Assembly: GCA_947259105.1 (NCBI GenBank)
Contig: CAMYKU010000022.1
Span: forward strand, 1 to 64,000
DNA from: an uncultured Alphaproteobacteria bacterium
GTDB taxonomy: Bacteria > Pseudomonadota > Alphaproteobacteria > UBA8366 > JADFVY01
Direction: 5' to 3'
DNA: 64,000 nucleotides
Shown here: positions 27,074 through 43,789 of the stretch, piece by piece
How the letters are laid out: the number at the start of each line of letters is the position of its first letter
How positions within the stretch are numbered: position 1 is the stretch's first letter
Notes under the pieces: generated by a model
The model's database searches: none
What the model was told of the DNA's origin: nothing
The model's input: the letters and a program-made list of their open reading frames with translations, nothing else
Program-made: the position numbers and the translations under genes

Positions 27074-27347
27074 GATTACACAGGCAGATAATTGGGAATC
27101 GGGCTCGTTGACATTCATGCTATCGCCCGTTCGGCCAAAGTGGAAAGCGGTTTCTCGGGGCATGCGGGGCGCATTTCGCGGCGGCCGGGGTGTGGTGCAT
27201 CCGGGGCGCCGATGACGGCGATGACGGCAAGGCCGGCGCTGTGATACCATCGCGGCGCCTGATGGAGGCCAATGCTGCGCGTGTCGTCCCGGCGGCGGCG
27301 CGCCGCAGCGGCAGGACAGTGCGACCGAAAACACGGAGGCTGTGACC

Positions 27348-27620
27348 ATGACACGGAAAATCGCCGTGCTCGTCCGGGACCGGGAAAGCGAGGCCCTGCG
27401 AATGGCGCTTGGCCTGATCCTCATGGATGACGCCGTCAATGTCTTCCTGCTCGGCAAAAAATTCGAATTGTCCGAGGCGGATTCGGCGAACAAGGAATTG
27501 ATGGAGGAAATGGATATCGCGTTCTTCTCGGACAACGAGGGCAACGCGGACACGCAATATATCCCGACGGACGAGTTGGCGCGCCGGTTGACCGAGTACG
27601 ACCACGTTATCCCGTATTGA
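27348..27620 (+). CDS. Small DsrE-superfamily-like protein without cysteine
   Basis: A 90-residue protein with the beta-alpha-beta start of DsrE/TusC-like proteins (RKIAVLVRDRESEALRMALGLILMDDAVNVFLLGKKF) and a C-terminal strand EYDHVIPY. The sulfur-carrying Cys of DsrE proteins is absent, as in some partner subunits. ATG 27348 follows GGAGG at 8 nt. It is the first of three tiny genes that resemble a DsrE-DsrF-DsrH trio before a GT39 gene. Assignment rests on fold-like pattern and context. Confidence 0.65.
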   Translation: MTRKIAVLVRDRESEALRMALGLILMDDAVNVFLLGKKFELSEADSANKELMEEMDIAFFSDNEGNADTQYIPTDELARRLTEYDHVIPY

Positions 27621-27662
27621 AAATCGTGCGCCGGTTCACGGCCATCTGAAGGGAAGCAAACC

Positions 27663-27965
27663 ATGAAACTGGGAATACTGGTGAACACGGACAGGCACCT
27701 TGGGCACATTCTGGGACTCGCGAAGGCGGCCAGCAAGAAAAACCATGAAGTTGTTATTTTCGCCATGGACCAAGGGGTCCGGCTTCTCGACGACGGCGCC
27801 TTTACCGAACTCGGCGGGCTGGACGGCGTTTCGCTCAGCTTCTGCAGCCACAGCGCCCGGGAACACGGGATCGAAACCGAGGGTAAGCCGGAAGGGGTTA
27901 CCGTCGGCAGCCAGCTCAACAATGCCATGATGGCCCAGGCGGTCGACAGGGTGATCGTTCTCTGA
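27663..27965 (+). CDS. Small DsrE/DsrF-like sulfur relay protein
   Basis: A 100-residue protein with a Rossmann-like DsrE fold pattern: MKLGILVNTDRHLGHILGLAKAASKKNHEVVIFAMDQGV. It has one Cys in LSFCSHSARE at the position where DsrE-type proteins often carry the active Cys. The C-terminal strand AVDRVIVL closes the domain. Ribosome binding site GAAGGGAAG. It lies 42 nt after the previous gene. Likely part of a persulfide relay; partners are unknown. Confidence 0.7.
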   Translation: MKLGILVNTDRHLGHILGLAKAASKKNHEVVIFAMDQGVRLLDDGAFTELGGLDGVSLSFCSHSAREHGIETEGKPEGVTVGSQLNNAMMAQAVDRVIVL

Positions 27966-28023
27966 GCACGACCCCGGCGGCTGTTTCGGGAGCCGCCGGA
28001 ACGAACAAGGAAGGCGCAGAATT

Positions 28024-28194
28024 ATGAAGTTGCTCCACATTATGACCAATGGCCCCGCAGAACTGCCGGAACGGATCATCGAGGCGCAATCGGCCGACAA
28101 TGAGATCGAGATCGTCGACCTGTCGCGAGACGACGTCTCGTACGATGCGGTCATCGATGCCATCTTCTCCTGCGACAAGGTTATCTCGTGGTAG
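28024..28194 (+). CDS. 56-residue DsrH/TusB-like protein
   Basis: A short gene with AAGGAAGG ahead of ATG 28024. The product starts MKLLHIMTNGP, has a middle strand NEIEIVDLSRDDV, and ends FSCDKVISW. The short length, first beta-strand and terminal Trp recall DsrH/TusB, which end in an aromatic residue, though it is about 40 residues shorter. The only Cys is seven residues from the C-terminus. It completes a three-gene set with the two upstream DsrE-like genes. Confidence 0.6.
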   Translation: MKLLHIMTNGPAELPERIIEAQSADNEIEIVDLSRDDVSYDAVIDAIFSCDKVISW

Positions 28195-28313
28195 CGATGG
28201 GATAGGGAATTCCCGGCACTGTTCGGGCGGGTGGCCCGGTGCCGGTCCGGATCCGCGCGACGATCCGGCATCGCGGAGCCAGGCCGCTGATCCGGCCGAG
28301 GGAGAGCGAGGCG

Positions 28314-30017
28314 ATGGCGGCGGTCGGTAAATTGCGTTCGGGATATGCCAATCAGGGACTCCTGGCGCTGCTCGTTGCCCTGATCACGCTGACCATTTTC
28401 ACGGCCCTTTTTCTCCTCCGTTTCCTCGACGACAACCGGCTGACCAACTGGCAGTGGGCCTTCGACCAATCCGATATCCGCCTGCTCGTCCTGGCCCTGG
28501 CGGCCGGGCTGGTCCTTGCCTACGCGGCCTCCGGCGTTTCCGTTCCCGCACGCGCGCAGGGGGCGTTGCTGTTCGCGGCGGCGTTCGCGGCCGCCGTGCT
28601 GTTCTGGGGAATCCCGGAGGTCATCGTCGATGCCGCCAGATATTTCATGCAGGCCAAATATCTCGAGCTTTACGGCGCCGGATTTTTCCTTCGGGAGTGG
28701 GGCCGGGAAATCGCGGTCTGGACCGATCTTCCCCTCATGCCGTTCCTGCACGGGCTGGTTTTCGGGGTGTTCGGCGAATCGCGGGTGGCGGTGCAGGCGT
28801 TCACCAGCCTGCTTTTTGCCGGGACCGTCGTCCTGACCTGGCTGATCGGCAGGACCCTGTGGGACGGCATCGTTGGCGGCTGCGCGGCGGCGCTTCTCCT
28901 CGCCATGCCGTATCTTCTCACGCAACCGGCGCTGATGCTGGTCGACGTCCCGACGATGTTCTTCATGACCCTTGCCGTGTTCACGACTCTCAAGGCTGTC
29001 CGGGAGGGCGGCGCCGGATTCCTGTCGGCGGCGGCGGTGGCGATAACGCTTGCGTTGCTGTCGAAATACTCGACCTGGCTGATGCTCACCGTCGTTCCCG
29101 TCATCGTCCTCACCCACCTCGATCGCGGTTGGCGGACCGCCCTCCGGCGCGCCGCGATTATTGCGCTGGCCACGTTCCTGCTGGCCGGAACGTTCGTGCT
29201 GATGAAGTTCGACGTCGTCGCAGCGCAACTGCAACTGTTGCGGACGTACCAGCTGCCCGGGCTGGCGCGCTGGGAAGAGAGCCACGTATCGACGTTCCTG
29301 TTTCAGATCCATCCGTTCGTCACGGCCGCCGCGTTGTGCGCCCTTGCCGTCGCTTTCGTCAGGCGGGACCGAAAGTTCGCGATTGTCGCCTGGATGCTGT
29401 TGCTGCTTGTGGTGCTCGGTGTAAAGCGGGCGCGGTATATCCTTATCGCCCTCCCGATGCTCGCACTGATGGCCGGTTACGCGATGCGGGAGGTGGCGGA
29501 TCGACGGATCCGGCGGTTCATCGTTTCCTGCGCCGTCGTCTCGACCCTGGTCACCTCCGTCTTCGGCTACCTGCCGCTGCTCAAGAGGATGAGCGCGGTG
29601 AACTTGCTTGCCGCGGGCGAACATCTCAACGGCATGGATGTGGAAGCGGTGGAAGTCTACACGCTGCCGCAGCCACGGTCGGTGATCAATCCGGCCATAG
29701 CGGTTCCGATCCTCGACCTGTTCACCGACAAACGAATCATCTACCGGGGCAACATGGTGGCGCCCCCGGCCCCGGAGTCGATCGCGACCTCGCCGCTGCG
29801 ATTTACCTGGGAGTACGACACGCCCGGCTATTTCAGGCCCCGCACCGATCGTCCGCGGGCCACCGCGGTGGCGGTGATCACAGCTTACGGAAATCAGTCC
29901 CTCCCGGATCTCATAGGCGCAAAAAAAGCATCGGATCTCCGCCTGTCCCGGGAGTTCGTCTTATCGGACGAATTCTTCAGGTTCAAGACCCTCGTTAGGG
30001 TCTATCACACACCATAA
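28314..30017 (+). CDS. GT39-like membrane glycosyltransferase
   Basis: A 567-residue GT-C-fold protein with about 12 hydrophobic segments up to residue ~440 and a soluble C-terminal domain. The first periplasmic loop has EVIVDAARYFMQAKYLELYG and then WTDLPLMPFLHGLVFGVFGES, the acidic catalytic region of the ArnT/PMT type. These enzymes transfer a sugar from a polyprenyl-phosphate donor to a lipid or protein outside the cytoplasmic membrane. ATG 28314 follows GAGGGAGAGCGAGG. It is fourth in the operon with the DsrE/F/H-like genes, an unusual pairing. Confidence 0.8.
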   Translation: MAAVGKLRSGYANQGLLALLVALITLTIFTALFLLRFLDDNRLTNWQWAFDQSDIRLLVLALAAGLVLAYAASGVSVPARAQGALLFAAAFAAAVLFWGIPEVIVDAARYFMQAKYLELYGAGFFLREWGREIAVWTDLPLMPFLHGLVFGVFGESRVAVQAFTSLLFAGTVVLTWLIGRTLWDGIVGGCAAALLLAMPYLLTQPALMLVDVPTMFFMTLAVFTTLKAVREGGAGFLSAAAVAITLALLSKYSTWLMLTVVPVIVLTHLDRGWRTALRRAAIIALATFLLAGTFVLMKFDVVAAQLQLLRTYQLPGLARWEESHVSTFLFQIHPFVTAAALCALAVAFVRRDRKFAIVAWMLLLLVVLGVKRARYILIALPMLALMAGYAMREVADRRIRRFIVSCAVVSTLVTSVFGYLPLLKRMSAVNLLAAGEHLNGMDVEAVEVYTLPQPRSVINPAIAVPILDLFTDKRIIYRGNMVAPPAPESIATSPLRFTWEYDTPGYFRPRTDRPRATAVAVITAYGNQSLPDLIGAKKASDLRLSREFVLSDEFFRFKTLVRVYHTP

Positions 30018-30127
30018 CGAGTGTGTTTTCCTGCATCATTTAACCATTGTTGAATATTTACTATCGACAAATTATTCGCCGATCATTAGCCTTACGTTTG
30101 GCGGGTTAAAAAAAAAGGTGCAGCGAT
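30018..30127 (+). promoter_or_regulatory. AT-rich leader of the YeeE operon
   Basis: A short AT-rich gap between the GT39 gene and yeeE. It contains TTGAAT at about 30049 and a TATT-rich element 17 nt later, a weak sigma70-like promoter. An A-run and AGGTGCAG precede the ATG at 30128. A small CACAC/GTGTG hairpin with T's (30006-30029) overlaps the GT39 stop and may be a weak terminator. Confidence 0.3.
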
Positions 30128-31609
30128 ATGGTCGGGACGGATGCCGTCTTGGTCGGTGGCGCGCACAGCGACACGCAGACCGCCAACGATGTGATCAAGA
30201 AACGCCGGTGGGCGTATGGGGTGATGGCGTTCTTTGCCCTGGTCAGCATCGGTACGTATGCCTACAACGAGTATTACATCTACCTTTCCGTGTATCTCTG
30301 GTTCGGGCTCATCTACGGGATGTGCCTGCAGTATGGGCGATTCTGTTTTTCATCGGCGTTCCGGGACCTGTTTGCCGTCGGCGTACCGCGGATGGTCGTC
30401 GGCATCATGATCGCAACGGTGCTGTTCGCCTTCGTCGGCGCCATCGTGACGGCAACCGGCCTGAGCACCTTCCATTCCGCCCCGGTCAGTTTCCATGCGG
30501 TGGTCGCCGGGTTCATCTTCGGCATCGGCATGGTGTTCGCCGGCGGCTGCGCCTCGGGCTCGCTCTACAAGACGGGCGAAGGCAACGGCAATGCGCTGCT
30601 CGTGGTGCTGTCGATCAGCGTTACCCAGGCACTGTTCGTCGACGTCGGCGGCTGGACCAACAAGCTGGTGCCGGCGTCGTGGCGCGAGTCCGCCCTCGCG
30701 AAGGGCCTCCCGGAATCGATCAATGTCGGCGATGGCTGGGTCGACCAGTATCTTGCCGGCTATGTCTGGGACCAGCCTGTTACGACCTTCGCCCAGATGT
30801 CAGGGTCGTCGAACGAAACCTTCGCCGGGGCATTCCTGGGCAATCTGTTGCTGGGCGTCGTGCTGCCGGCGGCCGTTCTCCTGATCGTCGTGTACATCTT
30901 CTGGGCGCGCAGGAGTCATATGCGCAGGCGGGAGAAAGAGGGACTCCCGGCTCCCACATTCCTGGACGAGCTGGGCGGATACTGGGCCATGATCACCGCC
31001 AACAAGCGGACCGCCATCGCCGGCCTCGTTCTCGGCATTGCGTGCGGACTGCACATGTTCGTCATCCAGGGCCTGCGCGTGAAATTCGGCGTCAGGAACG
31101 CCGGCACGCTGCTGGAGCGGATGGGGTTCGACTTCGGCATTTCCGTGAACGGCACCGTCTTCGACCCGGGCTACTGGTACGTGACGACCCAGGAGGCGCA
31201 GTGGGTCGGCTGGACATTCCAGAAACTCGGCACCGAAAATATGGACAATATCTTCTTCGGTTTCGTCAACGGCATTCCCAATCCGGCGATCAACCCGGCG
31301 GACTGGATGTCGCTCGCCCTGATCGGCGGCGCGGCGGTCATGGCGCTGCTGAACAACGAGTTCCGCTTCAAGAAACCGACGCTGGAACTCGCGACCTGGG
31401 CCCTCATCGGCGGTGCGCTGATGGGCATCGGCTCGCGGCTCGGCCTTGGATGCAATGTCGGCGCTTTCTTCGTCCGGGTCTCGCAAGGCGACCCGTCGGG
31501 ATGGCTGTTCGGACTGGGCATGATCGGCGGCGCATATATCGGGGTTAGATTCTTCAACTGGTGGACGGAGCGAAAGATGGCGAAGCAGTTCGCCGCCAGC
31601 GATTTCTAA
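30128..31609 (+). CDS. YeeE/YedE family sulfur-compound transporter
   Basis: A 493-residue membrane protein with about 10-12 helices and the duplicated YeeE/YedE repeat. Conserved cysteines occur in YGMCLQYGRFCFSSAFRDL (first half), FAGGCASGSLY, and IGSRLGLGCNVGAFF (second half). In characterised thiosulfate-uptake YeeE these cysteines guide the substrate through the membrane. tusA follows 36 nt downstream, as in classical yeeE-yeeD pairs. Predicted role: import of thiosulfate or a similar sulfur species that feeds the local sulfur carriers. Confidence 0.9.
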   Translation: MVGTDAVLVGGAHSDTQTANDVIKKRRWAYGVMAFFALVSIGTYAYNEYYIYLSVYLWFGLIYGMCLQYGRFCFSSAFRDLFAVGVPRMVVGIMIATVLFAFVGAIVTATGLSTFHSAPVSFHAVVAGFIFGIGMVFAGGCASGSLYKTGEGNGNALLVVLSISVTQALFVDVGGWTNKLVPASWRESALAKGLPESINVGDGWVDQYLAGYVWDQPVTTFAQMSGSSNETFAGAFLGNLLLGVVLPAAVLLIVVYIFWARRSHMRRREKEGLPAPTFLDELGGYWAMITANKRTAIAGLVLGIACGLHMFVIQGLRVKFGVRNAGTLLERMGFDFGISVNGTVFDPGYWYVTTQEAQWVGWTFQKLGTENMDNIFFGFVNGIPNPAINPADWMSLALIGGAAVMALLNNEFRFKKPTLELATWALIGGALMGIGSRLGLGCNVGAFFVRVSQGDPSGWLFGLGMIGGAYIGVRFFNWWTERKMAKQFAASDF

Positions 31610-31645
31610 ATTTCGCCGGTCGCATCCAAGGAGGAAAAACGCGCG

Positions 31646-31891
31646 ATGAAATTCGAAAAGAAATCCGACGGCCTGTTCGTCCTGAACGTGGAGGGCTATG
31701 TCTGCCCGCATCCACAGATTTACACGAAGAAGGCGCTGGAGAAGGTGAATGTCGGCGACATCGTCGAGGTCATGTTCGACAATCCGTCGTCGGGCGAATC
31801 GATCGCCGTCATGTGCGAGAATACCGGCGACGAGATCGTCGCCAGGAATGACGAGGCCGGCAAGTTCAGATGGGATATCCGCAAGGTCTGA
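31646..31891 (+). CDS. TusA family sulfur carrier protein
   Basis: An 81-residue TusA/YeeD-type protein with the CPxP active motif as GYVCPHPQIYTKKALEK near residue 20; the Cys carries persulfide sulfur. The family fold follows: VGDIVEVMFDNPSSGESIAV, then EIVARNDEAG. Ribosome binding site AAGGAGG. It probably receives sulfur from the YeeE substrate and passes it to DsrE-like or radical SAM partners. Confidence 0.9.
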   Translation: MKFEKKSDGLFVLNVEGYVCPHPQIYTKKALEKVNVGDIVEVMFDNPSSGESIAVMCENTGDEIVARNDEAGKFRWDIRKV

Positions 31892-31988
31892 ACCGGATGT
31901 CCCGGCGGGGTGGTTGCCGACGCCCCGGGTCTGCCTGTTCGTCCGGGCAGGTGGCGCGGCGGCCGAGAATCGAAGGGATGAAGACGCG

Positions 31989-32189
31989 ATGAACAACAGT
32001 CACTGGGCCGTTATTCTCATTGCGGGACTCTTCACCGGGTTCATGATGGGCTACAGCGTGCCGCCCATGGTCGAGGTCGGTATGATCGGCGGCGGGGCCG
32101 ATGCCGAAATCGGGCTGAAAGGCGGAGTGGACGACGAGCTGGAAGAGTATTACCGGAGCCTCTCGCTCGAAGCCGACGAGAGCCAGTAG
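31989..32189 (+). CDS. Small single-pass membrane protein with C-terminal EYY motif (1)
   Basis: A 66-residue protein: one N-terminal transmembrane helix (residues 6-22, WAVILIAGLFTGFMMGY), a Gly-rich segment, and an acidic tail with GGVDDELEEYYRSLSLE. ATG 31989 follows AAGGGATG. No known family is recognised. It resembles the next gene product in layout and tail motif, so the two are probably paralogues that anchor or scaffold partners at the membrane. Confidence 0.65.
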   Translation: MNNSHWAVILIAGLFTGFMMGYSVPPMVEVGMIGGGADAEIGLKGGVDDELEEYYRSLSLEADESQ

Positions 32190-32251
32190 CACACAGCGGA
32201 AACCGGCAAAGACAGCGGCATGACTGCCGAACGTAGTTGAGGAGCAAAACC

Positions 32252-32464
32252 TTGCGAACCGCAATCTGGGTGTTGACCGTCGTTGTGGGAAGCGTGCTTG
32301 CGGGACTGCTTGGCTATGCGACGTCCTCGCGGACCGGTGTGGAACCCGGCTATTTCGAGGCCGCCGAGGCCGGTAGTTACGGGGTGTCCGCGGGCGGCGA
32401 GGGCGGCGTTGAGGAACTGGACCCCGCACTGCAGGAATACTACGAAAACCTGAAGGTGGAATGA
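32252..32464 (+). CDS. Small single-pass membrane protein with C-terminal EYY motif (2)
   Basis: A 70-residue protein started by TTG at 32252, chosen because GAGGAG lies 7 nt upstream (another TTG at 32237 is possible). Transmembrane helix at residues 4-22 (AIWVLTVVVGSVLAGLLGY), Gly-rich middle, then GGVEELDPALQEYYENLKVE. The stop overlaps the ATG of the FAD oxidoreductase (ATGA), so production of the two is coupled. Paralogue of the upstream small protein by shared pattern. Confidence 0.65.
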   Translation: MRTAIWVLTVVVGSVLAGLLGYATSSRTGVEPGYFEAAEAGSYGVSAGGEGGVEELDPALQEYYENLKVE

Positions 32465-33918
32465 TCGTCCCGCCGCTGCAAACGGTGGCGGGACGGCGGC
32501 CTGTCCGCGGCGCGCGGGACGTCGTGATTCTGGGCGCGGGGCTTGCCGGCCTCACGGCGGGCAGCCTGCTCACGCGATCGGGCGCCGACGTAACGATCGT
32601 CGAACGGGATACAGCGGTCGGCGGACTGGCCCGGACCATCGAGCACAACGGCTTCCGGTTCGACCTCGGCGGACACCGCTTCCATACCGAAAACAGGGGC
32701 GTGGAGAAACTCGTCAGGTCGGTCCTCGGCGAGGATGTGCTTGAGGTCGACCGTTCAAGCAAAATCCTCATGGACGGCCGGTATTTCGACTATCCCTGGA
32801 GACCCGTAAATGCCCTGAGCGGCCTCGGCGTCGGCACGGCGGCGGCGGTCCTTTTCAGCTTCGCCGCCGAACGGCTTCGCCAGCGATTCCGTAAACCGGA
32901 AACCATATCCTTCGAAGACGAGATCGTCCGCCGCTTCGGCCGCGCCATGTTCGACATATTCGTCAGGGAATACAGCGAAAAGGTCTGGGGCGTGGCGTGC
33001 GGCCGCATGGCACGAGAGCTGGCGGAGTGGCGGATCCAGGGCCTGTCCGTCCGGGCCGCCCTTCGCGATGCGTTGTTTGCCCGCCACCGCGGAACCGTGC
33101 GCACGCTGGCCCGCAAGTTCGTTTATCCGGCCCAGGGTATCGGCCAGCTTGCCGAGGGGCTGCGGCGGCAGATCGAGGAATACGGACGGGTTCTGACGGG
33201 CACCACGGTCACGGGCATCAATCATTCAGGCGGCAGGATCGACGGCCTGACGCTGCGAAACGGCGCCCGAACGGATCGCAGACAGGCCGGCGAACTCGCC
33301 TCCAGCATCCCGCTTTCCGTACTGGTCCGCCTGCTCGATCCGAAGCCACCGGAGGAGATCCTCAAGGCGGCCGCCGGGCTTCGGTTCCGTGATCTGATTG
33401 TTGTTGCGGTCATGATCGATCGCGCGCGGGTCACCGACCAGACGTGGATTTACGTGCCCGAACGGAAGATACCGTTTGGGCGAATTCATGAGCCGACCAA
33501 CTGGAGCCGGCACATGGCGCCGGACGGGAAGACCCTTCTGGTTACGGAACATTTCTGTTTCCGCGGCGATGACCGCTGGTGTGCCGGTGACGATGCGCTC
33601 GTCGAGGATACGGTCGCCAGCCTGGATGGCCTTGGATTGATTCGCAGGCACGAGGTGATCGACAGCCTGGTGCTGCGAGTCCCCGACGCTTACCCGTTGT
33701 TCGAGATCGGCCATGACGAGAGCCGGCGGAAGATCTGCGAGTACCTGGCGCGGTTCGAGAACCTGCAGGTGATCGGACGGGGCGGCATGTTCCGGTACTT
33801 CAACATGGACCACGCCATGGAATCCGGCATCGCCGCAGCCGAAGCGATCATCGCGAGAACCACACGGTCGCGCCCGCACGAGCGCGACGCCAGGGCCGTG
33901 GCGGAGGCTTACCCATGA
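32461..33918 (+). CDS. FAD-dependent oxidoreductase (amine oxidase/phytoene desaturase/UGM-like)
   Basis: A 485-residue flavoprotein. The dinucleotide motif ILGAGLAGLTAGSLL is at about residues 23-37, and VERDTAVGGLARTIEHNGFRF follows as in phytoene-desaturase-like and UDP-galactopyranose-mutase-like enzymes. Near the C-terminus, GRGGMFRYFNMDHAMESG closes the FAD site. Such proteins often occur with glycosyltransferases and act on lipid or sugar substrates. It sits between the small membrane proteins and a radical SAM gene with stop-start overlaps on both sides. Confidence 0.83.
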   Translation: MIVPPLQTVAGRRPVRGARDVVILGAGLAGLTAGSLLTRSGADVTIVERDTAVGGLARTIEHNGFRFDLGGHRFHTENRGVEKLVRSVLGEDVLEVDRSSKILMDGRYFDYPWRPVNALSGLGVGTAAAVLFSFAAERLRQRFRKPETISFEDEIVRRFGRAMFDIFVREYSEKVWGVACGRMARELAEWRIQGLSVRAALRDALFARHRGTVRTLARKFVYPAQGIGQLAEGLRRQIEEYGRVLTGTTVTGINHSGGRIDGLTLRNGARTDRRQAGELASSIPLSVLVRLLDPKPPEEILKAAAGLRFRDLIVVAVMIDRARVTDQTWIYVPERKIPFGRIHEPTNWSRHMAPDGKTLLVTEHFCFRGDDRWCAGDDALVEDTVASLDGLGLIRRHEVIDSLVLRVPDAYPLFEIGHDESRRKICEYLARFENLQVIGRGGMFRYFNMDHAMESGIAAAEAIIARTTRSRPHERDARAVAEAYP

Positions 33919-35411
33919 GATGCGCGCTGATCATACCCGCGTGGACGCCCGAGGAGATCTTCTCGACCAGAACGGCCGGCTCGCAGATCAACTACTGGCA
34001 GCCGCTCGGAACCCTTTACGTGGGGGCCTGCCTTCAAAAAGCCGGGCACGAGGTGGCGTTTCTCGACGGCTCGTTCCTGACCCACGCGGCCATATTGCAG
34101 CAGGTCCGCGATCTGAAGCCCGATTTCGCGGGCATTTATTCGACGACGTTCGGCTGGCCGGCGGCGGTGCGTACGGCGGACGACATCAAGGCGCTGGACC
34201 CCGGAATATGGACCTGCGTCGGCGGGCCCTATCCAACGGCGGCGCCGGATGCGTGTCTGGCTGACGGCGGCGTAGCAATCGACGCGGTCGTGGTGGGCGA
34301 GGGCGAGGAAACCGTCGTGGAAATTCTCGACCGCCTCGGATCGGGACGGGACCTGGCCGGCGTCGCCGGCGTGATCGCCCGGCAGGACGGGCGGATCGTC
34401 CGCAACCCGCCGCGGCCTCTGATCGCAGAGCTGGACGCCCTGCCCTTCCCTTCCCGCGAACTGCTGGGCGACCGAAGCCGCTACATCCCGGCGCCGGCGA
34501 CCTACAGAAGAAAGCCCGTCGCCATCGTTACGACGTCGCGGGGGTGCGACCGCCGGTGCCTGTTCTGTTTTCAGATGGACAGGGAGCGGAAGAGCGGAAT
34601 TCGCGGCGTCCGCTACCGCAGCATCGGCAATGTGCTGGAAGAGATCGAGCTGTGTTTGCGCGAGGGCTACCGCGAAATCAAATTCATCGACGATTCCCTC
34701 GCCGCCGACCGCGACCGCGCCATGCGCCTCACCACGGAAATCCAGCGCCGCGGGCTCGATTTCACCTGGTTCGCGTCGGTCTGCGCCAACCAGGCGGACG
34801 CGGCGCTGTTCCGGGCGATGAAGGACGCGGGCTGCTGGGCGGTCCTGATCGGCGGCGAAAGCGGCGTCCAGAAGAACCTCAACACCCTCCGCAAGGGCGC
34901 CACCCTCGATCAGATCCGCGGGGCCGTGGACGCGGCCAAGGCGGCCGGGCTGCGCGTGACCGTCCCCTTCATCTTCGGGATTCCGGGGGAGACATTTGGC
35001 GACGCCCTTCGCACCATCGATTTCGCCGTTTCGTTGAATCCCGACCTGGCGAATTTCCACGCCATCACGGCCTTTCCCGGCACCCCCCTGCACGACCGCG
35101 CGGCCGAATACGGCACTGTTTCGCAAGACCTGCGGGACTTCACCTTCCAGCGTGCCGCGTTCGTGCCGCACAGCATGACGCGGGACGAAATCCTGAAGGC
35201 CCGCCAGCTGGCGTTCCGGAAATTCTATTCCCGGCCTTCGTTCCTGTTGCGCAGGCTTGCCGCGATCCGAAGCCTGGAGGATTGCCGAACGGCGATCACC
35301 GGCCTGCGGAGTCTGTTTTGGCTGTGGATGGACAGGATGCTGTTCCGGCGGAAGCAGCCGGCGCAGCCGCAGCGTCCGGCCGAACGCGGCCCAAACCGAG
35401 GTACTCCTTGA
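33915..35411 (+). CDS. B12-binding-domain radical SAM protein
   Basis: A 498-residue protein with an N-terminal cobalamin-binding-like Rossmann domain (about 1-150; no DxHxxG, as in many B12 methylases), then a radical SAM domain with TTSRGCDRRCLFCF (CxxxCxxC for the 4Fe-4S cluster) near residue 205. The later FIFGIPGETFGDALRTI and the helical tail resemble BchE/HpnJ-like lipid- or ring-modifying enzymes. The ATG overlaps the FAD gene stop. The last 116 nt overlap the 3' end of the opposing radical SAM gene. Likely substrate: a membrane-associated isoprenoid, lipid or sugar. Confidence 0.85.
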   Translation: MRCALIIPAWTPEEIFSTRTAGSQINYWQPLGTLYVGACLQKAGHEVAFLDGSFLTHAAILQQVRDLKPDFAGIYSTTFGWPAAVRTADDIKALDPGIWTCVGGPYPTAAPDACLADGGVAIDAVVVGEGEETVVEILDRLGSGRDLAGVAGVIARQDGRIVRNPPRPLIAELDALPFPSRELLGDRSRYIPAPATYRRKPVAIVTTSRGCDRRCLFCFQMDRERKSGIRGVRYRSIGNVLEEIELCLREGYREIKFIDDSLAADRDRAMRLTTEIQRRGLDFTWFASVCANQADAALFRAMKDAGCWAVLIGGESGVQKNLNTLRKGATLDQIRGAVDAAKAAGLRVTVPFIFGIPGETFGDALRTIDFAVSLNPDLANFHAITAFPGTPLHDRAAEYGTVSQDLRDFTFQRAAFVPHSMTRDEILKARQLAFRKFYSRPSFLLRRLAAIRSLEDCRTAITGLRSLFWLWMDRMLFRRKQPAQPQRPAERGPNRGTP

Positions 35412-36471
35412 AAAGCGCCGGGTAGAGCCCCGGATTGAACAGGATGTTCATGATGAAGTTGCATTCGTGGGTGCAATGGCAGGCGCCGTCCGCGATCGGC
35501 CCGAGTATGTCCCGCGCCCGGTCCGACTTCAGGAGCCGGCCGACGTCGTAACCATGCGCCCGCACGTTGCCGAGGCTGCTGCCCAGGACTTCGCACGGAT
35601 GGATCTCGCCGGTTTCGGTGAGCACGAGATTCAGATTGCCGGCGTAACAGGGAACCAGCCGGCGGTCGGCCAGCAGGGTCTGGTGGATCAGCTGGCGCTG
35701 CAGGATATCCTGCGCCGCCTTGAGGCGGGACCCGGCGAAGCTGTGGATGCTGGCCACCCCGTCCTTCAGGTTTCGCTCGAGACGGTCCGTGGCGCGGCGG
35801 TATTTTCCCACATCGACCGACTTGTATCGCTCCTCCGCAAGGTTGCCGCGGATCATCGAGATGGTATGGGTTCCCCTGATGTCGAGGCCGGCGACGAAAT
35901 CGATGATTTCATCCATCCGGTCCTGGTTTTCGGACAGGAAGACGGTGTTGATCCCGAGTTCGAGATTCGTATAGCGGCTGCGGAGCCTGCCCAGCGACCG
36001 GTAGGTCTCCAGAGCCTTTTCGAACGCGCCGGGCGAGCGCCGCAATTCGTCATGGTCGCCGTTGAGCCCGTCGAGAGAGACCTTGACGACGATGACGCTT
36101 CCCGGGCAGCGCCGGAGAATGCGTTCGGTCTGCTCAACCGTCGCCTCGGGAAGCAGCCCGTTGGTTGGAAACAGCATGATCCGCGGCCGGTTCCGGTCGT
36201 GGAAGATCGCGCCGATTTCCGCGAGATCGCCGCGCAGAAACACCTCGCCGCCCGAAAAGGCAACCCACAGCAGCCGCCCCAGAGATCCGGAAATTTCACG
36301 AATCTCGGGCAGCGACAGCAACTCGCCGTCGGCCGAGGGGTCGCGGCTATTCAGATAGAAACACCATGGACACCGCGCGTTGCACTTCCGGGTTACGAAA
36401 AACGTCAACTGGATCGGCCGGCGTTTCCGCAAGATCGACGGCATGTGGCGCAGGGCGGAGTGCACTTTCAT
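35296..36471 (-). CDS. Radical SAM protein with SPASM-like C-terminus
   Basis: A 391-residue protein. The cluster motif is TRKCNARCPWCF near residue 28, followed by VAFSGGEVFLRGDLAEI (SAM binding) near 70. C-terminal cysteines in VPCYAGNL, IHPCEVLG and CHCTHECNF suggest one or two auxiliary clusters of SPASM type. ATG 36471 overlaps the stop of the GT2 gene (ATGA), so both are one operon. The 3' end runs 116 nt into the opposing B12-radical SAM gene, and its last ~30 residues are low-complexity Ala/Pro/Thr. Confidence 0.82.
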   Translation of the reverse strand: MKVHSALRHMPSILRKRRPIQLTFFVTRKCNARCPWCFYLNSRDPSADGELLSLPEIREISGSLGRLLWVAFSGGEVFLRGDLAEIGAIFHDRNRPRIMLFPTNGLLPEATVEQTERILRRCPGSVIVVKVSLDGLNGDHDELRRSPGAFEKALETYRSLGRLRSRYTNLELGINTVFLSENQDRMDEIIDFVAGLDIRGTHTISMIRGNLAEERYKSVDVGKYRRATDRLERNLKDGVASIHSFAGSRLKAAQDILQRQLIHQTLLADRRLVPCYAGNLNLVLTETGEIHPCEVLGSSLGNVRAHGYDVGRLLKSDRARDILGPIADGACHCTHECNFIMNILFNPGLYPALFKEYLGLGRVRPDAAAAPAASAGTASCPSTAKTDSAGR

Positions 36472-37472
36472 CCACCCTTTCGCAGGTAACGCGGAGGCGT
36501 GAAATGGCGCGCGACGCCGGCAAGAACACCGGCACCGACGGCAACGGGAAACACGAACAGGTAGTATGCCGTGGCCGCGACGCCGAAGATGGCCCCACCC
36601 CCCTTGAAGAACGCCATGATCATGCCCCGGCCAACCATCAGATTGGCGATGATCGGCAACGCCGTCAGATACACGAACAGGACGTTCCCGCTCGTCACGG
36701 ACACCAGGAGCAGGGTCAGCGCGGCAAGACCGAACGCCAGATTCGCTTTCAGTTCCGTCGATGCGGTTCCTGAATCGGCGAATACGTCCTTGTTCCGGAT
36801 CGAATAGACGGTCCAGTACATCGACTTGAATACGGCATTGCGGAGCGAGCGATAGAGCGAAAAACCGAAGATGTGCCGAACCCGCAAACGGGGTTCGATG
36901 ACGATGCGGTGTCCCGCACGCCGCAGCCTGTGGCTGAACTCCACATCCTCGGCCACCGGCAGGAACCCCTCCGAAAAACCGCCGCTCCGCCGGAACGCCG
37001 CGGCGGCGATAACCATCGCGTGTCCGGCCGCGTAGTCGGCGGTGTCCGTGTGCTTGGTCTCCGAATAGTTGACGAACAGGGACTGGAATCGGCTGAAGAA
37101 ATCCGCGTCGTATGGATCGGGCGTGTAGGTTCCGCCGACGATCGCGTCCGGGCCTTGCAGCGAGAAGGCGTCCGCCGCGATGGCGAGCGTGTCGGCCTCC
37201 AGCAGACAATCGGCATCGGTAAAGAACAGGATCTCGCCGCGGCTCTCTGCCGCACCGGCGTTCCGGGCGGCCGAAGCGCCGCTGTGCCGGTCAAGCCGCA
37301 CCAGCCGGCACGGGAACCGCTCTATCACGGCGACCGACCGGTCCTCGGAATGGTCGTCGACGACGATCACCTCGAACGGCTTGTAACTTGACCGGTACGC
37401 CGCCTCGAGGCACAGCCCGATCGTCGCCTCGCCGTTCCGGTTGGGGATGATGATCGAGATCAAATCTGCCAT
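36468..37472 (-). CDS. GT2 family glycosyltransferase with C-terminal membrane segments
   Basis: A 334-residue GT-A enzyme. It has SIIIPNRNGEATIGLCLEA at the start, VVDDHSEDRS near 37, the DxD motif in FFTDADC near 85, and FLPVAEDVEFSHRLRRAG near 170. Two to three hydrophobic helices occupy about residues 245-320. It probably builds a lipid-linked or cell-surface glycan using a nucleotide-sugar. First gene of the minus-strand pair with the SPASM-like radical SAM gene. Confidence 0.87.
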   Translation of the reverse strand: MADLISIIIPNRNGEATIGLCLEAAYRSSYKPFEVIVVDDHSEDRSVAVIERFPCRLVRLDRHSGASAARNAGAAESRGEILFFTDADCLLEADTLAIAADAFSLQGPDAIVGGTYTPDPYDADFFSRFQSLFVNYSETKHTDTADYAAGHAMVIAAAAFRRSGGFSEGFLPVAEDVEFSHRLRRAGHRIVIEPRLRVRHIFGFSLYRSLRNAVFKSMYWTVYSIRNKDVFADSGTASTELKANLAFGLAALTLLLVSVTSGNVLFVYLTALPIIANLMVGRGMIMAFFKGGGAIFGVAATAYYLFVFPVAVGAGVLAGVARHFTPPRYLRKGG

Positions 37473-37822
37473 CGGCCGGTCTCGGAAATCCGTTCGCTGC
37501 GGTTTCGATGTTGCAGGAACCTCAGCGTATCCTCTATTTCCAATTGATCATATCGAATTACCCTATAATATATTCCCATAATTATATGTGTGAGTGCACG
37601 CGGGCGTAAACAGGCTTTCCCATGGCGGGAGGGGGTTCGTGTGCAAAGGTTGACTTTGCCATCGCTCGTTGAGCTAAGGACGGGAACGTCTGTTTCGCCC
37701 AGTTTGACCGTCGGACCCCGCAAAGAAGGGCCGGCGGAAGTGGCGCTGTCATCAAGGCTCGTGCCCCGTGTCGGAGGCAGGGCGGAAGAGTCCGCGTCTA
37801 CGTGAAACAGAGGAGGTAAAAC
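37473..37822. promoter_or_regulatory. AT-rich divergent region
   Basis: This 350-nt gap separates the divergent GT2 and rhodanese genes. The part at about 37530-37590 is strikingly AT-rich and includes TATAAT at 37564-37569, likely serving promoters on one or both strands. The best TTG-type -35 is only 14 nt away, so the exact promoter is uncertain. AGAGGAGG precedes the rhodanese ATG. No gene seen. Confidence 0.4.
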
Positions 37823-38845
37823 ATGATCAGGTTACTGACACGGCGTGTCACGGGAGCGGCTGTCGTCGCTCTATCGGTGGCTATGTGGGCCGACGTGGCG
37901 CCGGCGGCCGAATGGGCCAATCCGGAACTGCTGGCAACGCCCGAAATCGTCAAACAGAATATCGACAAACCCGACTGGGTGGTCGTCGACTGCCGCGGAT
38001 TGGGCGACTACGCGAAAGGCCACATCCCCGGCGCCATCAGTCTTGGAAATTCCTGCAGCAAGGCGCTCCGCGATTCCACGTCGAGGATCTTCCGGGACAT
38101 CTCGAAATACGAGAATCTCCTTGGCAAGGTGGGCATCGGCAACGATACCCATGTCGTCTTCTATTACGGAGATATGGGCACGATAACCAGCGCCACGGTT
38201 GCGTTCTGGGTTCTCGAGTATCTCGGCCATGACAAGGTTCATGTCCTCAATGGCGGTCTCGATGCCTGGCGCAAGGCAGGCAACCGGCTTGACGCCAAGC
38301 CCGCGATGCGGGAACCGAAGACCTTCAAGGCCAACGTGGTGGCCAGCCGGTATGGTTCGACGGACGAGGTCCTGCAGATCGCCAACGGAGATTTGTCCGG
38401 TGTGCAGCTTCTCGATTCGAGGACGACGAAGGAGCACGCGGGAGTCGACATACGGGCGATCAGGGGCGGCCACGTCCCCAACACGACACTCAATGTTTCG
38501 CACAAGGACACCCTGGCGCAGGAAAAGGATCCGAAGAGCGGAAAAATGGTCCCTGTCGCCTATTTCGATCCGGATATTGTGAGCGCCAAGTTCGCGTCCC
38601 TGGAAAGGAACAAACGCACCCTCGGATACTGCCAGACCGGGACCCGGTCGACCATGACCTATCTTCAGCTTCGGCTCCTCGGATTCGAGGACCCGGCAAA
38701 CTGGGATGAGTCCTGGCGTGTCTATGGCTCCCAGCTGAGCTACCCCGTCGACGGCGAGCAGTGGTATAACTTCGCGAGCGTCAACAACAAGATCAAGGCG
38801 CTCGAGGCAAAGGTCAAAACCCTCGAGGCCGGCGCCAAGAAGTAG
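37823..38845 (+). CDS. Exported tandem-rhodanese sulfurtransferase
   Basis: A 340-residue protein with a Sec signal peptide (1-29, cleavage near APAAEWA) and two rhodanese domains. The first domain (about 35-155) has YYGDMGTIT where the Cys loop should be and is probably inactive. The second (about 170-315) has the active loop GYCQTGTRST. Residues 318-340 form a short coiled coil (NNKIKALEAKVKTLEAGAKK). Predicted to move sulfane sulfur in the periplasm. Position beside the YeeE/TusA and cytochrome c genes suits oxidation or import of reduced sulfur. Confidence 0.87.
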   Translation: MIRLLTRRVTGAAVVALSVAMWADVAPAAEWANPELLATPEIVKQNIDKPDWVVVDCRGLGDYAKGHIPGAISLGNSCSKALRDSTSRIFRDISKYENLLGKVGIGNDTHVVFYYGDMGTITSATVAFWVLEYLGHDKVHVLNGGLDAWRKAGNRLDAKPAMREPKTFKANVVASRYGSTDEVLQIANGDLSGVQLLDSRTTKEHAGVDIRAIRGGHVPNTTLNVSHKDTLAQEKDPKSGKMVPVAYFDPDIVSAKFASLERNKRTLGYCQTGTRSTMTYLQLRLLGFEDPANWDESWRVYGSQLSYPVDGEQWYNFASVNNKIKALEAKVKTLEAGAKK

Positions 38846-39820: not shown

Positions 39821-40129
39821 TCATTTCATTGCCGCATAATAGGCGGCGATATCCGCCATGTCCTGGTCGCTCAGCTTCGCAACGGACCTCATCATGGCCT
39901 TATGGTCGCGTGCGCCGCTCTTGTAGTCCTGCAGCGCCTTGACGTGGGCTGCCGCGTCCATGCCGGCCACCGGCGGATTCTTCCCCTTGCCCTCGCCGGC
40001 CTTGCCATGGCAGCCGCTGCATTTCGCCGCCAGTTTCTCTCCCGCAGCCACATCGCCGGCGGCGCCCGCCGGCACGGCCAGACCGAGCGCCAAACCGGCC
40101 GCGAGAACCGTAATCAAGTACTTGAGCAT
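39821..40129 (-). CDS. Small class I c-type cytochrome
   Basis: A 102-residue protein with a signal peptide (1-23, cleavage near GAAGD), haem motif AKCSGCHGK at about residue 36-40 (CxxCH), and a Met ligand candidate in HKAMMRSVAKLSDQDM. The C-terminal DMADIAAYYAAMK is typical of cytochrome c4/c5-like monohaem proteins. ATG at 40129 follows GAGGAGA. It is a periplasmic electron carrier, possibly accepting electrons from sulfur oxidation nearby. Confidence 0.9.
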   Translation of the reverse strand: MLKYLITVLAAGLALGLAVPAGAAGDVAAGEKLAAKCSGCHGKAGEGKGKNPPVAGMDAAAHVKALQDYKSGARDHKAMMRSVAKLSDQDMADIAAYYAAMK

Positions 40130-40637
40130 TAATCTGTCTCCTCGTGATGTTGCAGTGCTTCAGGAATGTCTTGCAGTTCGAAGGTTGGTCCCTCTCCGCG
40201 CGACGCAAGTACCATAAGAGGCCGCACACTTCCCGATCGCTCCGGGTCGCCGGGCAACTTTGACTTGGCATGCAACCCTATGGCGGGTCTGCGGCGGGCG
40301 AAATGACCTGTATCAAACAATAACATGCGACAGAATGTATTTTTGATGGTGGGACCGTTAATCTCGTGCGGCGTTCAGGCTTGCACCCGACCGTCGGCGC
40401 CAACCGCCCTGGAATCGGCGTATCGGCGGCGCCACCCGTTCGAGGGTCGGTTGAGGGCAAAGATGGCGTCTGCCGGCCGCGGGAGAGTCACATCCCCGTG
40501 ACAACCGGAACAACACGATTGACAATGAGGGGCACGATCCGTTCTTCATTGTGCCCGGCATAAGGCCATAATCGGGTGCGCCAGGGGGAGATCACTGGCC
40601 AGTCCCGGCAATCAAACCATAAAACTTGGAGGTATGA
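40130..40637. other. Intergenic region before the redox cluster
   Basis: A 508-nt gap between divergent cytochrome c and peroxiredoxin-like genes. A TTGACA at 40519-40524 may be a -35 element, but no matching -10 follows. Overlapping dyads ACAATGA/TCATTGT and GGGCAC/GTGCCC span about 40522-40557 and might be an operator. No gene seen; TTGGAGG precedes the ATG at 40638. Confidence 0.4.
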
Positions 40638-41168
40638 ATGACCAGGCTCGTCCCCCGCAAACCTGTCCCTTCGCTGGAAGTCCCGACACTGGACGGCGAA
40701 GTCTGGCGGCTCTCGGAACAAAGCCCCGCGAAATTCACCATGATCGTGTTCTACCGGGGGCGGCACTGCCCGGTCTGCAAACTGTACCTTGAAGACGTCA
40801 CGAAGAAGCTGGGCGATCTGGCCGCGCGCGGCGTTGAAACCATAGCGATGAGCACGGATGACGAGGACAGGGCCCGCGAGACGGCCGCCGATTGGGCGTT
40901 GGACGGGCTGAAGATCGGCTACGGCCTGTCGGTCGACAAGGCCCGCGAGTGGGGTCTCTACGTATCGTCCAGCCGGGGCAAGACCTCGCTCGGCATCGAG
41001 GAGCCGGCGCTGTTCAACGAGCCGGGTTTCTTCCTGGTGCGTCCGGACGGCACGCTGTACTGGTCGATCGTCCAGACCATGCCGTTCCTGCGCCCGCATT
41101 TCGCCGAGTTGGTGGCCGTGCTCGACAAGATCGAACAAATGGATTACCCGGCGCGCGGCGAGGCCTGA
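40638..41168 (+). CDS. Peroxiredoxin-like (AhpC/TSA-type) protein
   Basis: A 176-residue thioredoxin-fold protein. The active region is VFYRGRHCPVCKLYLEDV near residue 40, a CxxC in the peroxiredoxin position, which is a common variant of AhpC/TSA-like proteins. Later PGFFLVRPDGTLYWSIVQ matches the family. Predicted cytosolic thiol redox enzyme. It starts a plus-strand run of redox genes (AhpD-like, deiodinase-like, acyl-CoA dehydrogenase). Confidence 0.85.
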   Translation: MTRLVPRKPVPSLEVPTLDGEVWRLSEQSPAKFTMIVFYRGRHCPVCKLYLEDVTKKLGDLAARGVETIAMSTDDEDRARETAADWALDGLKIGYGLSVDKAREWGLYVSSSRGKTSLGIEEPALFNEPGFFLVRPDGTLYWSIVQTMPFLRPHFAELVAVLDKIEQMDYPARGEA

Positions 41169-41236
41169 CACGCGGGCGCCTTCGCGCTATTCTGCGGCTT
41201 GCCCGAAACAACAACGGATAAGGTCAGGAGGAGAGA

Positions 41237-41824
41237 ATGCCGAGGCTTCGTTATATCGAGGAAGACGAAAAAACCGACGTCGCCAGGGAACTCATCGCGT
41301 CGGCCGAGCGGACCGGTGCGCCCGACCCCCGTGTCGTCAGCATCATGGTGCGCAGCCCGAAGGCGGGCGTCGCCTGGGTGCGCTACTGGAACTCGCTGCT
41401 CTATGACGGCGTCCTGCCGCACCCGCTGAAAGAGATGTGCCGGATCCTGATTTCGATGTCGCACCGCTGCGGCTATTGCTCGACGGTGCGCTCGAAGGTG
41501 GCGCAGGAGCAGGGACTGACGGAGGACAAGGTCGGCGCGCTGTTCGACTTCGAGACCAGCGACCTGTTCACCGATCGCGAGCGCGCCGCGCTGCGCTATG
41601 CGATGCGATTCAAGTCCGGCGACAGCGGCGTCGATTCCGACGAGGCCTACGACGATCTGCGCAAGCATTTCAGCGATGAGGAGATCATCGAGCTGGGCCT
41701 GTTCTGCGGCGAAACCGACGGCGCCGGCAAGCTGGTCCGCTCCTGGCAGGTGCTGAGCTGGGACGAGGCCTGCACCCTGAACCCCGACCTGCAGTCGCTC
41801 GACAAGCCGGTGGCCGCGGAATAA
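41237..41824 (+). CDS. Carboxymuconolactone decarboxylase/AhpD-like protein
   Basis: A 195-residue all-helical CMD-family protein with the AhpD-type redox motif SHRCGYCSTVRSKVA near residue 80 (CxxC). AhpD-like proteins reduce AhpC partners, which fits the upstream peroxiredoxin-like gene. Ribosome binding site AGGAGGAGA before ATG 41237. A peroxidase-reductase pair with the neighbour is likely but not proven. Confidence 0.85.
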   Translation: MPRLRYIEEDEKTDVARELIASAERTGAPDPRVVSIMVRSPKAGVAWVRYWNSLLYDGVLPHPLKEMCRILISMSHRCGYCSTVRSKVAQEQGLTEDKVGALFDFETSDLFTDRERAALRYAMRFKSGDSGVDSDEAYDDLRKHFSDEEIIELGLFCGETDGAGKLVRSWQVLSWDEACTLNPDLQSLDKPVAAE

Positions 41825-41854
41825 GCGGAAGGCGGCGGCGCGGCGGAGGGGGGA

Positions 41855-42547
41855 ATGCCGACCAGATACAATTACGACCGCTACCGGATGTCGGAATACG
41901 ACCTGGGCAGCTTCCCGGGCCCCAAAGCAGGCGAAGAGGCTGCGGATTTTGCGCTCACTACGCTGGGTGGCGCGGAGGTAAGCCTGTCCGACTACCGGGG
42001 CAAATGGGTGGTCATCGAAACCGGCAGCATCACCTGCTCCATGTACGTCAAGAATGTCGGCGGCATCCGCAGGCTGAAGGACAACTATCCCGACGTCGCA
42101 TTCCTGCTCGTCTACGTGCGTGAAGCGCATCCCGGCTCGCGCCTCAAGCCGCCGCGGGACCAGTCGGAAAAACTCGCGCTGGGCCAGCGTTTGAAGGAAA
42201 TCTACAGCGACCCGCGCGACGTGCTGGTCGACACGCTGGACGGCGACATGCACCGTCGTTACGGCGCTTTGCCCAACATGGTCTATGTCGTCGATCCCGA
42301 AGGCCGCGTGGTCTACCGCTGCGACTGGGCGTTTCCGAAGAATATCGAACGGGTCTTGGACAACCGGCCGAACATCGATACACATGAACATGTGCAGATC
42401 GTCACGGCGGCGCCGTGGATCATGGTGCCGGTGGTGTTGCGCGGCGGATGGGACGCGCTCTGGGACCTCCTTGTCGCCTTGCCGACGCTTGCGTGGGCGC
42501 ATCTCGTCGCCGACTGGCGGAACCTGAAGAAGAAATTCGCCGGCTGA
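41855..42547 (+). CDS. Deiodinase-like redoxin
   Basis: A 230-residue thioredoxin-fold protein. The active region reads VVIETGSITCSMYVKNVGG near residue 55, and LVYVREAHPGSR near 88 matches the YIxEAHP signature of the iodothyronine-deiodinase family. The residue that is selenocysteine in vertebrate enzymes is Cys here (codon TGC). The C-terminal ~60 residues are hydrophobic and amphipathic. Bacterial relatives are of unknown substrate. Ribosome binding site GGAGGGGGG. Operon with the AhpD-like gene (30-nt gap). Confidence 0.8.
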   Translation: MPTRYNYDRYRMSEYDLGSFPGPKAGEEAADFALTTLGGAEVSLSDYRGKWVVIETGSITCSMYVKNVGGIRRLKDNYPDVAFLLVYVREAHPGSRLKPPRDQSEKLALGQRLKEIYSDPRDVLVDTLDGDMHRRYGALPNMVYVVDPEGRVVYRCDWAFPKNIERVLDNRPNIDTHEHVQIVTAAPWIMVPVVLRGGWDALWDLLVALPTLAWAHLVADWRNLKKKFAG

Positions 42548-42579
42548 TCTGGCCTGCCGGCGCAGACCGGGAGGGCCGC

Positions 42580-43767
42580 ATGACAAGCCTGTTCGTACTG
42601 GATGAGGACCAGCGCGCGATCCTTGAGACCGTGCGCCGGTTCGTGGACGAGGTGGTGTCGCCGGTTGCGGCCGAGCTCGACCGCCGGGACAGGCCGGAGG
42701 ACTGTTTTTCCTGGGACATCGTCGAGAAGTCCGATGCCGCCGGCATCCGGACGATGACGCTGGCCGAGGAGCACGGTGGGATCGGCGCCGGGTCGCTGAC
42801 CACGGCGATGGTGATCGAGGAACTGGCCAAGGGCGACATGGGCGTGGCCGTGGTCATGGCCCAGACCCTGAAGCTTGCGCAGATTCTGCAGACCGCGACC
42901 AGCGAGGACCAGCGCCGGCGCTACCTGCCGAAGTTCCGGGACGATCCGCGTGCGGTCCTCGCGATCGGCATCACAGAACCGGAGACCGCCTCCAATTACT
43001 TCGTGCCGCACCGCGTCCCCGACGCGCCGTTCCATACCCGTGCCGAGAAGACCGATGGCGGCTGGTCGATCAACGGCATGAAACATTTCATCTCGAACGG
43101 CAACGTCGCCAGCCTCTATCTGCTGTTCGCGCAGACGGAGCGTGGCAAGGGCCTTGCCGACGGCGCCACCTGCTTCCTGGTCGAACGCGGCACGCCGGGA
43201 TTCACGATCGGCCGGGTCCACGACAAGATGGGCGAGCGCCTGGCCAACAATGCGGAGCTGATCTTCCAGGACTGCTTCGTGCCCGATGAAAACGTGGTCG
43301 GCGAAGCCGGCGACGGCTTCCAGGTGCTGGTCGATTTCTTCCCCGCCAGCAACGCCTACGCCGCGGCGACGGTGCTGGGCGTCGCGGTCGCCGCCTATGA
43401 GCGCGCCGTCGAATGGGCGAAGACGCGAAACCAGGGGGGCAAGCTGCTGATCGAGCACGACGGCATCGCCGCGGACCTCGCCGAGTGCCGCATGCTGCTG
43501 GACGTCGCCCGCACCTATATCCATCGCGCCGCATGGGCGGCCGACAACCGGGAGCTGGACTGGGATCCGACGTTCGGATCGCTGCCCAAGGTGTTCGCCT
43601 CGCAAGCCGCATGGAAGGTCGTCACCCGCTGCTCCGAGATTCACGGTGGCTCAGGCTTCATGCGCGACATCGGCTTCGAGAAACTGATCCGCGATGCCGC
43701 GGCCTTCCTGCATTCCGACGGGGTCAACAGGACGCTGCTGCTGAAAGCGGCCAGGCACATGTTCTGA
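42580..43767 (+). CDS. Acyl-CoA dehydrogenase
   Basis: A 395-residue ACAD-fold flavoenzyme. The FAD/substrate strand is AIGITEPETASNYFV near residue 128, and the C-terminal motif is EIHGGSGFMRDIGFEKLIRD near 350. The alpha,beta-desaturation of an acyl-CoA is the expected reaction. ATG 42580 follows GGGAGGG. It lies 32 nt after the redoxin gene and 22 nt before the alcohol dehydrogenase gene. Confidence 0.9.
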   Translation: MTSLFVLDEDQRAILETVRRFVDEVVSPVAAELDRRDRPEDCFSWDIVEKSDAAGIRTMTLAEEHGGIGAGSLTTAMVIEELAKGDMGVAVVMAQTLKLAQILQTATSEDQRRRYLPKFRDDPRAVLAIGITEPETASNYFVPHRVPDAPFHTRAEKTDGGWSINGMKHFISNGNVASLYLLFAQTERGKGLADGATCFLVERGTPGFTIGRVHDKMGERLANNAELIFQDCFVPDENVVGEAGDGFQVLVDFFPASNAYAAATVLGVAVAAYERAVEWAKTRNQGGKLLIEHDGIAADLAECRMLLDVARTYIHRAAWAADNRELDWDPTFGSLPKVFASQAAWKVVTRCSEIHGGSGFMRDIGFEKLIRDAAAFLHSDGVNRTLLLKAARHMF

Positions 43768-43789
43768 CAGGAGCGAAGGAGCGCAGCAA

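Follow-up and report, generated by a model that had tools for sequence, protein, structure and literature searches.

Gene content of the cluster

The window analyzed here is a stretch of 64,000 nucleotides, positions 1 to 64,000 of contig CAMYKU010000022.1, from an uncultured alphaproteobacterium whose draft genome comprises 121 contigs and is 88.8% complete. Positions 27342-38845 of the window hold 13 open reading frames (A–M) that combine sulfur import and relay genes with glycosyltransferase and radical SAM genes. All 13 were confirmed where an earlier note, made from the DNA letters alone, had placed them, and its domain assignments agree with ours (DsrE, GT39, YeeE, TusA, FAD, B12 radical SAM, radical SAM, GT2 and rhodanese). 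Genes A–J and M are on the plus strand, while K and L form a minus-strand pair converging on J, and the block is therefore not one operon. The stop-to-start overlaps described in that note are present as 4-bp overlaps at H/I, I/J and L/K. No Rfam elements were found in the window.

The sulfur half begins with three small genes that appear DsrEFH type II-like. A (27348..27620) encodes a DsrF-like subunit of 90 residues without a conserved cysteine, B (27663..27965) a DsrE-like subunit of 100 residues (PF02635) with one invariant cysteine, Cys61, identical in 41/41 sequences, and C (28024..28194) a 56-residue protein in the DsrH position. A and C have 45 orthologs each and no Pfam or NCBIfam match. 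Structure prediction, proposed in the earlier note for the small proteins, gave confident AlphaFold folds for both (pLDDT 90.8 for A and 95.7 for C). The top PDB match of A is 2pd2 (TM-score 0.73, E 8e-3), the protein ST0148, which we take to be DsrE-like, and Foldseek gave no specific structural match for C. A PDB profile search returned nothing for B or D and chance matches only for A. The half continues with E (30128..31609), a YeeE/YedE-like sulfur transporter (Sulf_transp, PF04143) related to the TsuA structures 6leo and 8k1r, and F (31646..31891), a TusA protein with a CPHP motif (PF01206). At the far end of the block lies M (37823..38845), an exported tandem rhodanese (PF00581) with the active-site loop CQTGTRST and an N-terminal signal peptide seen in the sequence. 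Between F and I are two small proteins with a single transmembrane helix and no family match: G (31989..32189; 67 orthologs aligned), with the pattern GY...PP...E.G and a C-terminal EYY, and H (32237..32464), with the pattern TG.EPG[YF]F...YG and a Tyr48-Gly49 that is invariant in 67/67.

The other half consists of D, I, J, K and L. D (28308..30017) is a GT39/PMT-like (PMT_2) membrane glycosyltransferase (PF13231, PF02366). I (32461..33918) is an FAD protein of the amine-oxidase type that resembles UDP-galactopyranose mutase (UGM): it passes NF005548, the PRK07208 group (PRK07208.1-4, function unnamed), with 422.9 bits against a cut-off of 389, and aligns end to end with the mutase 4dsg (E 6e-22), but falls under the UGM cut-off itself (TIGR00031, 51.3 vs 303.75 bits). 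J (33915..35411) is a B12-binding radical SAM protein with an invariant C211-C215-C218. Its nearest PDB profile match is AprD4 (6fd2, E 3e-33), a radical SAM enzyme that modifies aminosugars, and its nearest NCBIfam model is HpnJ; it is below cut-off for both HpnJ (TIGR03471, 187.2 vs 577.6 bits) and the AprD4 diol-dehydratase (NF033070, 96.4 vs 500 bits). On the minus strand, K (35296..36471) is a SPASM-like radical SAM protein (PF04055) whose radical SAM cysteines (C30/C34/C37) and C-terminal auxiliary Fe-S cysteines (C275/C293/C333/C337) are invariant across 26 sequences, with SkfB, a maturase of ribosomally synthesized and post-translationally modified peptides (RiPPs), as its nearest PDB match. 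L (36468..37472) is a GT2 with C-terminal membrane helices (PF00535), MftF/HpnI-like and below the respective cut-offs. From these similarities J, I and D would seem to tailor or transfer sugars and not to insert sulfur, and I, J, K and L together with the GT39 resemble a route that would make a lipid-carried sugar and transfer it outside.

Conserved order and co-occurrence of the two halves

A scan of a genome collection with two YeeE orthologs as queries yielded 80 loci, which we mapped with hidden Markov models built from the window orthologs. The order A-B-C-D-E-F-G-H-I-J, followed by K and L on the opposite strand and then M, is kept in about 80 loci in Alpha-, Beta- and Gammaproteobacteria, Nitrospirota, Desulfobulbia and Rokubacteria, a conservation far beyond chance. 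Counting only loci whose contig extends far enough, D is present in 63/67, TusA in 73/74 and the small proteins in 73/73, with lower frequencies for I (47/62), J (48/57), K (36/43) and A–C (46/60). In almost every locus D is located between the DsrEFH-like trio and YeeE. Variants include the order A-C-B, M on the 5′ side, and a shorter form, D-E-F-G-H-M, in Desulfobulbia and others; genomes with the short form carry J elsewhere, beside a second copy of YeeE.

Since the loci were found through YeeE, J was searched for independently. Among random Pseudomonadota J occurs in 1/349 genomes and YeeE in 1/398, in both cases the window's own genome, and because of this rarity we turned to Nitrospirota and Desulfobulbia to test the association. 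Of 198 Nitrospirota genomes, 40 have J and 31 have YeeE, and J is present in all 31 with YeeE (Fisher p about 2e-28, a statistic that ignores phylogeny and shared ancestry). In 193 Desulfobulbia genomes J is found in 25, YeeE in 19 and both in 18; the one YeeE genome without J (G902) is represented by a 3.3-kb contig. The nine Nitrospirota with J only fall into three groups. Two (G640, G698) carry the same cluster with a second YeeE type, roughly 50% identical, in four (G655, G657, G713, G715) D, I and J are accompanied by a third type of YeeE, and in three (G568, G596, G606) short contigs end before the expected sulfur genes. In G506, G513 and G531 (loci L029, L039 and L077) E and J occur together even though the two halves lie on different contigs. 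Mantel tests show correlated distances for E against J, K, I and D (r 0.47-0.60) and for J against I and K (r 0.73-0.75), correlations that would also be expected from shared ancestry alone. The earlier note had proposed that the sulfur and the glycosyltransferase/radical SAM genes form one conserved unit, and had named a lack of conserved order or a separate distribution of the two sets as observations that would speak against it; neither was found. It is very probable that the two halves are functionally linked.

Several side observations concern the make-up of individual loci. In L026 and L027 YeeE is tandemly duplicated, with TusA, a small protein and a rhodanese between the copies. The third YeeE type is encoded at L178:6063-7505 (Sulf_transp, 238 bits) and similarly in L179 and L186, followed in all three by a 77-residue protein in the TusA position that lacks CPxP and ends in Cys-x-Cys (GGSCGCGG); the same weak YeeE match is seen in L181. 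At L246:2344-11945 a D-J-L′-I′ cluster stands alone, without YeeE near, close to an LPG_synthase_TM protein and a porin. Within the window's own genus, G001 has dsrA and lacks J; the cluster is patchy even at this level, which suggests gain or loss. A phage origin was dropped because viral contigs contain no homologs of E or J. Downstream of the cluster (39821-44821 of the window) are an exported cytochrome c on the minus strand, two AhpC/redoxin-type proteins, a CMD protein, an acyl-CoA dehydrogenase and a zinc alcohol dehydrogenase; the cytochrome c and the first peroxiredoxin were mapped across the loci and do not travel with the cluster.

Dissimilatory sulfur genes and Gly-Tyr-Gly peptides

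Genomes that carry the cluster nearly always have dsrA, a gene of the dissimilatory sulfur (DSR) pathway. It is present in 45/49 cluster genomes, in 43 of them over the curated cut-off, and in 37/40 Nitrospirota genomes with J. In a comparison set of 99 relatives including the host, dsrA occurs in eight, and J is confined among these to the host and G005; relatives without J have dsrA in 6/97. The dsr locus of the host is of the oxidative kind, with dsrAB, classical dsrEFH, dsrC, M, K, a DsrL-type NAD(P)-binding protein, O and P, and the dsr loci of the other cluster-bearing Pseudomonadota resemble it. The dsrAB loci examined in Nitrospirota and Desulfobulbia lack DsrE type I and DsrL, so the cluster travels with both kinds of DSR. 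We consider it likely that the imported sulfur feeds DSR.

The small proteins between TusA and I share a tyrosine-glycine signature. Tyr48-Gly49 is invariant in 67/67 H proteins, while the nearby Tyr39 is replaced by Phe in 18. In other lineages the G/H slot is filled by a single peptide, anchored by a transmembrane helix or a lipobox, with up to 12 GGYG repeats and repeat tails of 37% Gly and 12% Tyr. Aromatic or His residues within [AGSP]G-x-G in these repeats are Tyr in 178 cases and His in one, a ratio that is partly built in as the repeat peptides were chosen for having GYG; the count for H is not affected in this way. An anchored [G/S/A]YG peptide lies within 3.5 kb of YeeE in 86/100 loci with E, compared to 2/117 on the opposite strand. 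We regard a shared role for these peptides as a lead, not a test. L077 has two GGYG peptides (11760-12029 and 12605-12877), one anchored by a transmembrane helix, the other with a lipobox and GGYGDD repeats. In five loci with the second YeeE type (L177, L183, L184, L189, L190) a universal stress protein gene, Pfam-confirmed in L183, is found beside the GYG peptide and next to tusA.

Interpretation and comparison with known systems

The interpretation starts from what was computed: gene content, conserved order, co-occurrence with dsrA and invariant residues. The explanation we favor, with moderate confidence, is a sulfur-uptake station that feeds DSR and whose envelope side is tailored by the glycan module. 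The exported rhodanese M would handle sulfane sulfur outside the cell, YeeE would import it, and TusA together with the A/B/C trio, with Cys61 of B as the active cysteine, would hand it to DsrC and DsrAB. L, I, J and K would make or tailor a lipid-carried sugar, which the GT39 would move onto an acceptor on the outward-facing side of the membrane. The most likely acceptor would be the anchored peptide with the Gly-Tyr-Gly motif, whether H/G or one of the repeat peptides; in the manner of sulfur globule proteins, it would keep sulfur close to YeeE. The direction of sulfur flow, the identities of the sugar and of the acceptor, and sulfur binding by the peptide are what we infer here.

A number of observations weigh against parts of this explanation. 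Four of the 49 cluster genomes lack a detected dsrA; these are metagenome-assembled genomes, with G492 a single-record chromosome. The host has classical DsrEFH, which would make a second relay partly redundant, and G001, with dsrA and no J, indicates that the cluster is not required for DSR. In L245, L246 and L248, D and J are accompanied by divergent forms of I and L but have no YeeE nearby, so the glycan module can stand alone, and no peptide is found near these genes either. Likewise, no GYG peptide is detectable in the four genomes in which the third YeeE type adjoins D, I and J. The peptide is therefore not the only acceptor, and for this reason its assignment as the acceptor is tentative and rather doubtful. 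In addition, GYG repeats are of low complexity and could be of convergent origin. An extended form of the proposal has a still weaker claim: the anchored GYG peptides would be ribosomal products of a new class, serving as sulfur carrier or docking arm. D-I-J-K-L would modify their tyrosines covalently, by glycosylation or radical SAM tailoring, and the arm so modified would supply YeeE-TusA-DsrEFH in organisms with oxidative as well as reductive DSR. We consider this speculative and rather unlikely.

Three other explanations share part of this evidence. The stand-alone D-J-I-L of L246, and the location of J on another contig than one YeeE copy in G506, G513 and G531, would fit two separate functions that stay together since each benefits sulfur oxidizers and disproportionators, for example a surface glycan for attachment to sulfur particles. 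Yet genome-level co-occurrence is nearly perfect even where the halves are unlinked, and D sits inside the sulfur half in almost every locus, so that we judge separate functions to be possible but rather unlikely. G, H and the GYG peptides might instead be RiPP-type precursors in which K and J modify Tyr-Gly and D or L add sugar to yield a peptide cofactor or redox group. A small repeat-core peptide does adjoin SPASM-like and B12 radical SAM genes, Tyr is invariant in H, and the similarity of K to SkfB points the same way; however, the profile of J best matches the sugar enzyme AprD4, J is also found without a peptide, and no NCBIfam RiPP model reaches its cut-off for K or the peptides, which leaves this explanation improbable. 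Least probable of all, and not supported, is the end product suggested in the earlier note, a sulfur-containing glycolipid or isoprenoid built in a radical SAM step that receives its sulfur from the relay. The tight linkage of the halves, the auxiliary Fe-S cysteines of K, broadly like those of sulfur-inserting enzymes, and the resemblance of J to the hopanoid enzyme HpnJ are consistent with it. Nevertheless, dsrA, a known destination of the relay, is nearly always present, the published type II relay delivers to DsrC, J, I and D resemble sugar enzymes, and D-J-I-L also occurs without YeeE near, so its product is not obviously dependent on the relay.

The proposed uptake station feeding DSR bears on an open question, how poorly soluble sulfur enters the cytoplasm of sulfur oxidizers, disproportionators and other DSR bacteria. 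A leading candidate for this entry is the YTD cluster, whose role is debated and which, in the published descriptions consulted, comprises five or six genes. Should a further eight be part of it across phyla, among them the genes for two radical enzymes, for two glycosyltransferases and for the Gly-Tyr-Gly peptides, current models miss half of the system. Concrete targets are one peptide with an invariant tyrosine and one acceptor.

Among known systems, the YeeE-fold importer and TusA-like partner recall TsuA/TsuB (YeeE/YeeD) thiosulfate uptake. We rejected E/F as a TsuA/TsuB transporter since the scores are far under the NCBIfam equivalog or exception cut-offs (97.4 vs 400 bits for NF052577, 58.3 vs 645 for NF041049, 27.7 vs 147.5 for TsuB). 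No known RiPP maturase or precursor model is over cut-off for K or the peptides. J has the architecture of AprD4 and HpnJ but lies far under the cut-offs of both. The GYG peptides are similar in composition to the sulfur globule proteins of Chromatiaceae, which are small, exported, Gly/Tyr-rich proteins of sulfur oxidizers (PMC8877833). They differ in being membrane-anchored, in their location beside YeeE/TusA and in having GYG spaced by Ala, Pro or Ser.

In the literature we found no paper describing the GT39/UGM-like/AprD4-HpnJ-like/SPASM-type/GT2 half of the cluster, and none that brings radical SAM together with TusA/YeeE or with GGYG. Neither “radical SAM” nor “glycosyl(transferase)” is mentioned in PMC12998232, PMC13047784, PMC13293266 and PMC9751629. 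The joint mention of TusA, DsrE, glycosyltransferase and sulfur oxidation in PMC6018796 is unrelated; the same combination is also matched by an archaeal paper, PMC7325606. The second half appears to be undescribed. The sulfur half is already published as the YTD cluster (YeeE, TusA and the DsrEFH type II-like trio), and the possible undescribed pathway of the earlier note is qualified in this respect.

The YTD cluster, described as yedE, tusA and dsrE with two to three hypothetical genes, is tied to sulfur disproportionation (PMC12998232). It is known from sulfur disproportionators and cable bacteria, its published hosts being Nitrospirota and Desulfobacterota, mostly with dsrA (PMC12998232, PMC9751629, PMC13047784), and it is more abundant during thiosulfate disproportionation in Desulfolithobacter (PMC9751629). 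DsrEFH type II is a new name for its dsrE and two hypothetical genes, whose products have been shown to relay sulfur from TusA through DsrE to DsrC, one cysteine of DsrE being key (PMC13293266). The present trio is likewise three small adjacent genes beside yeeE and tusA, with one invariant cysteine in DsrE (Cys61, as against Cys67 in the published system), with canonical models that miss A and C, and with dsrA/dsrAB in the same genomes. It differs in its order, A-B-C or A-C-B, in the Pfam match for B alone, and in a host that also has type I. In the window and most loci E, F, B, A and C lie in one block as in YTD, with D between C and E. To the five or six published genes our cluster adds the GT39, the GYG/EYY proteins, the UGM-like FAD protein, two radical SAM proteins, a GT2 and the exported rhodanese. 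Moreover, while complete YTD was reported only in Desulfobacterota and Nitrospirota, with single parts in Acidobacteriota (PMC12998232), the cluster described here is also present in Pseudomonadota with oxidative dsr genes, where that study reported no complete cluster.

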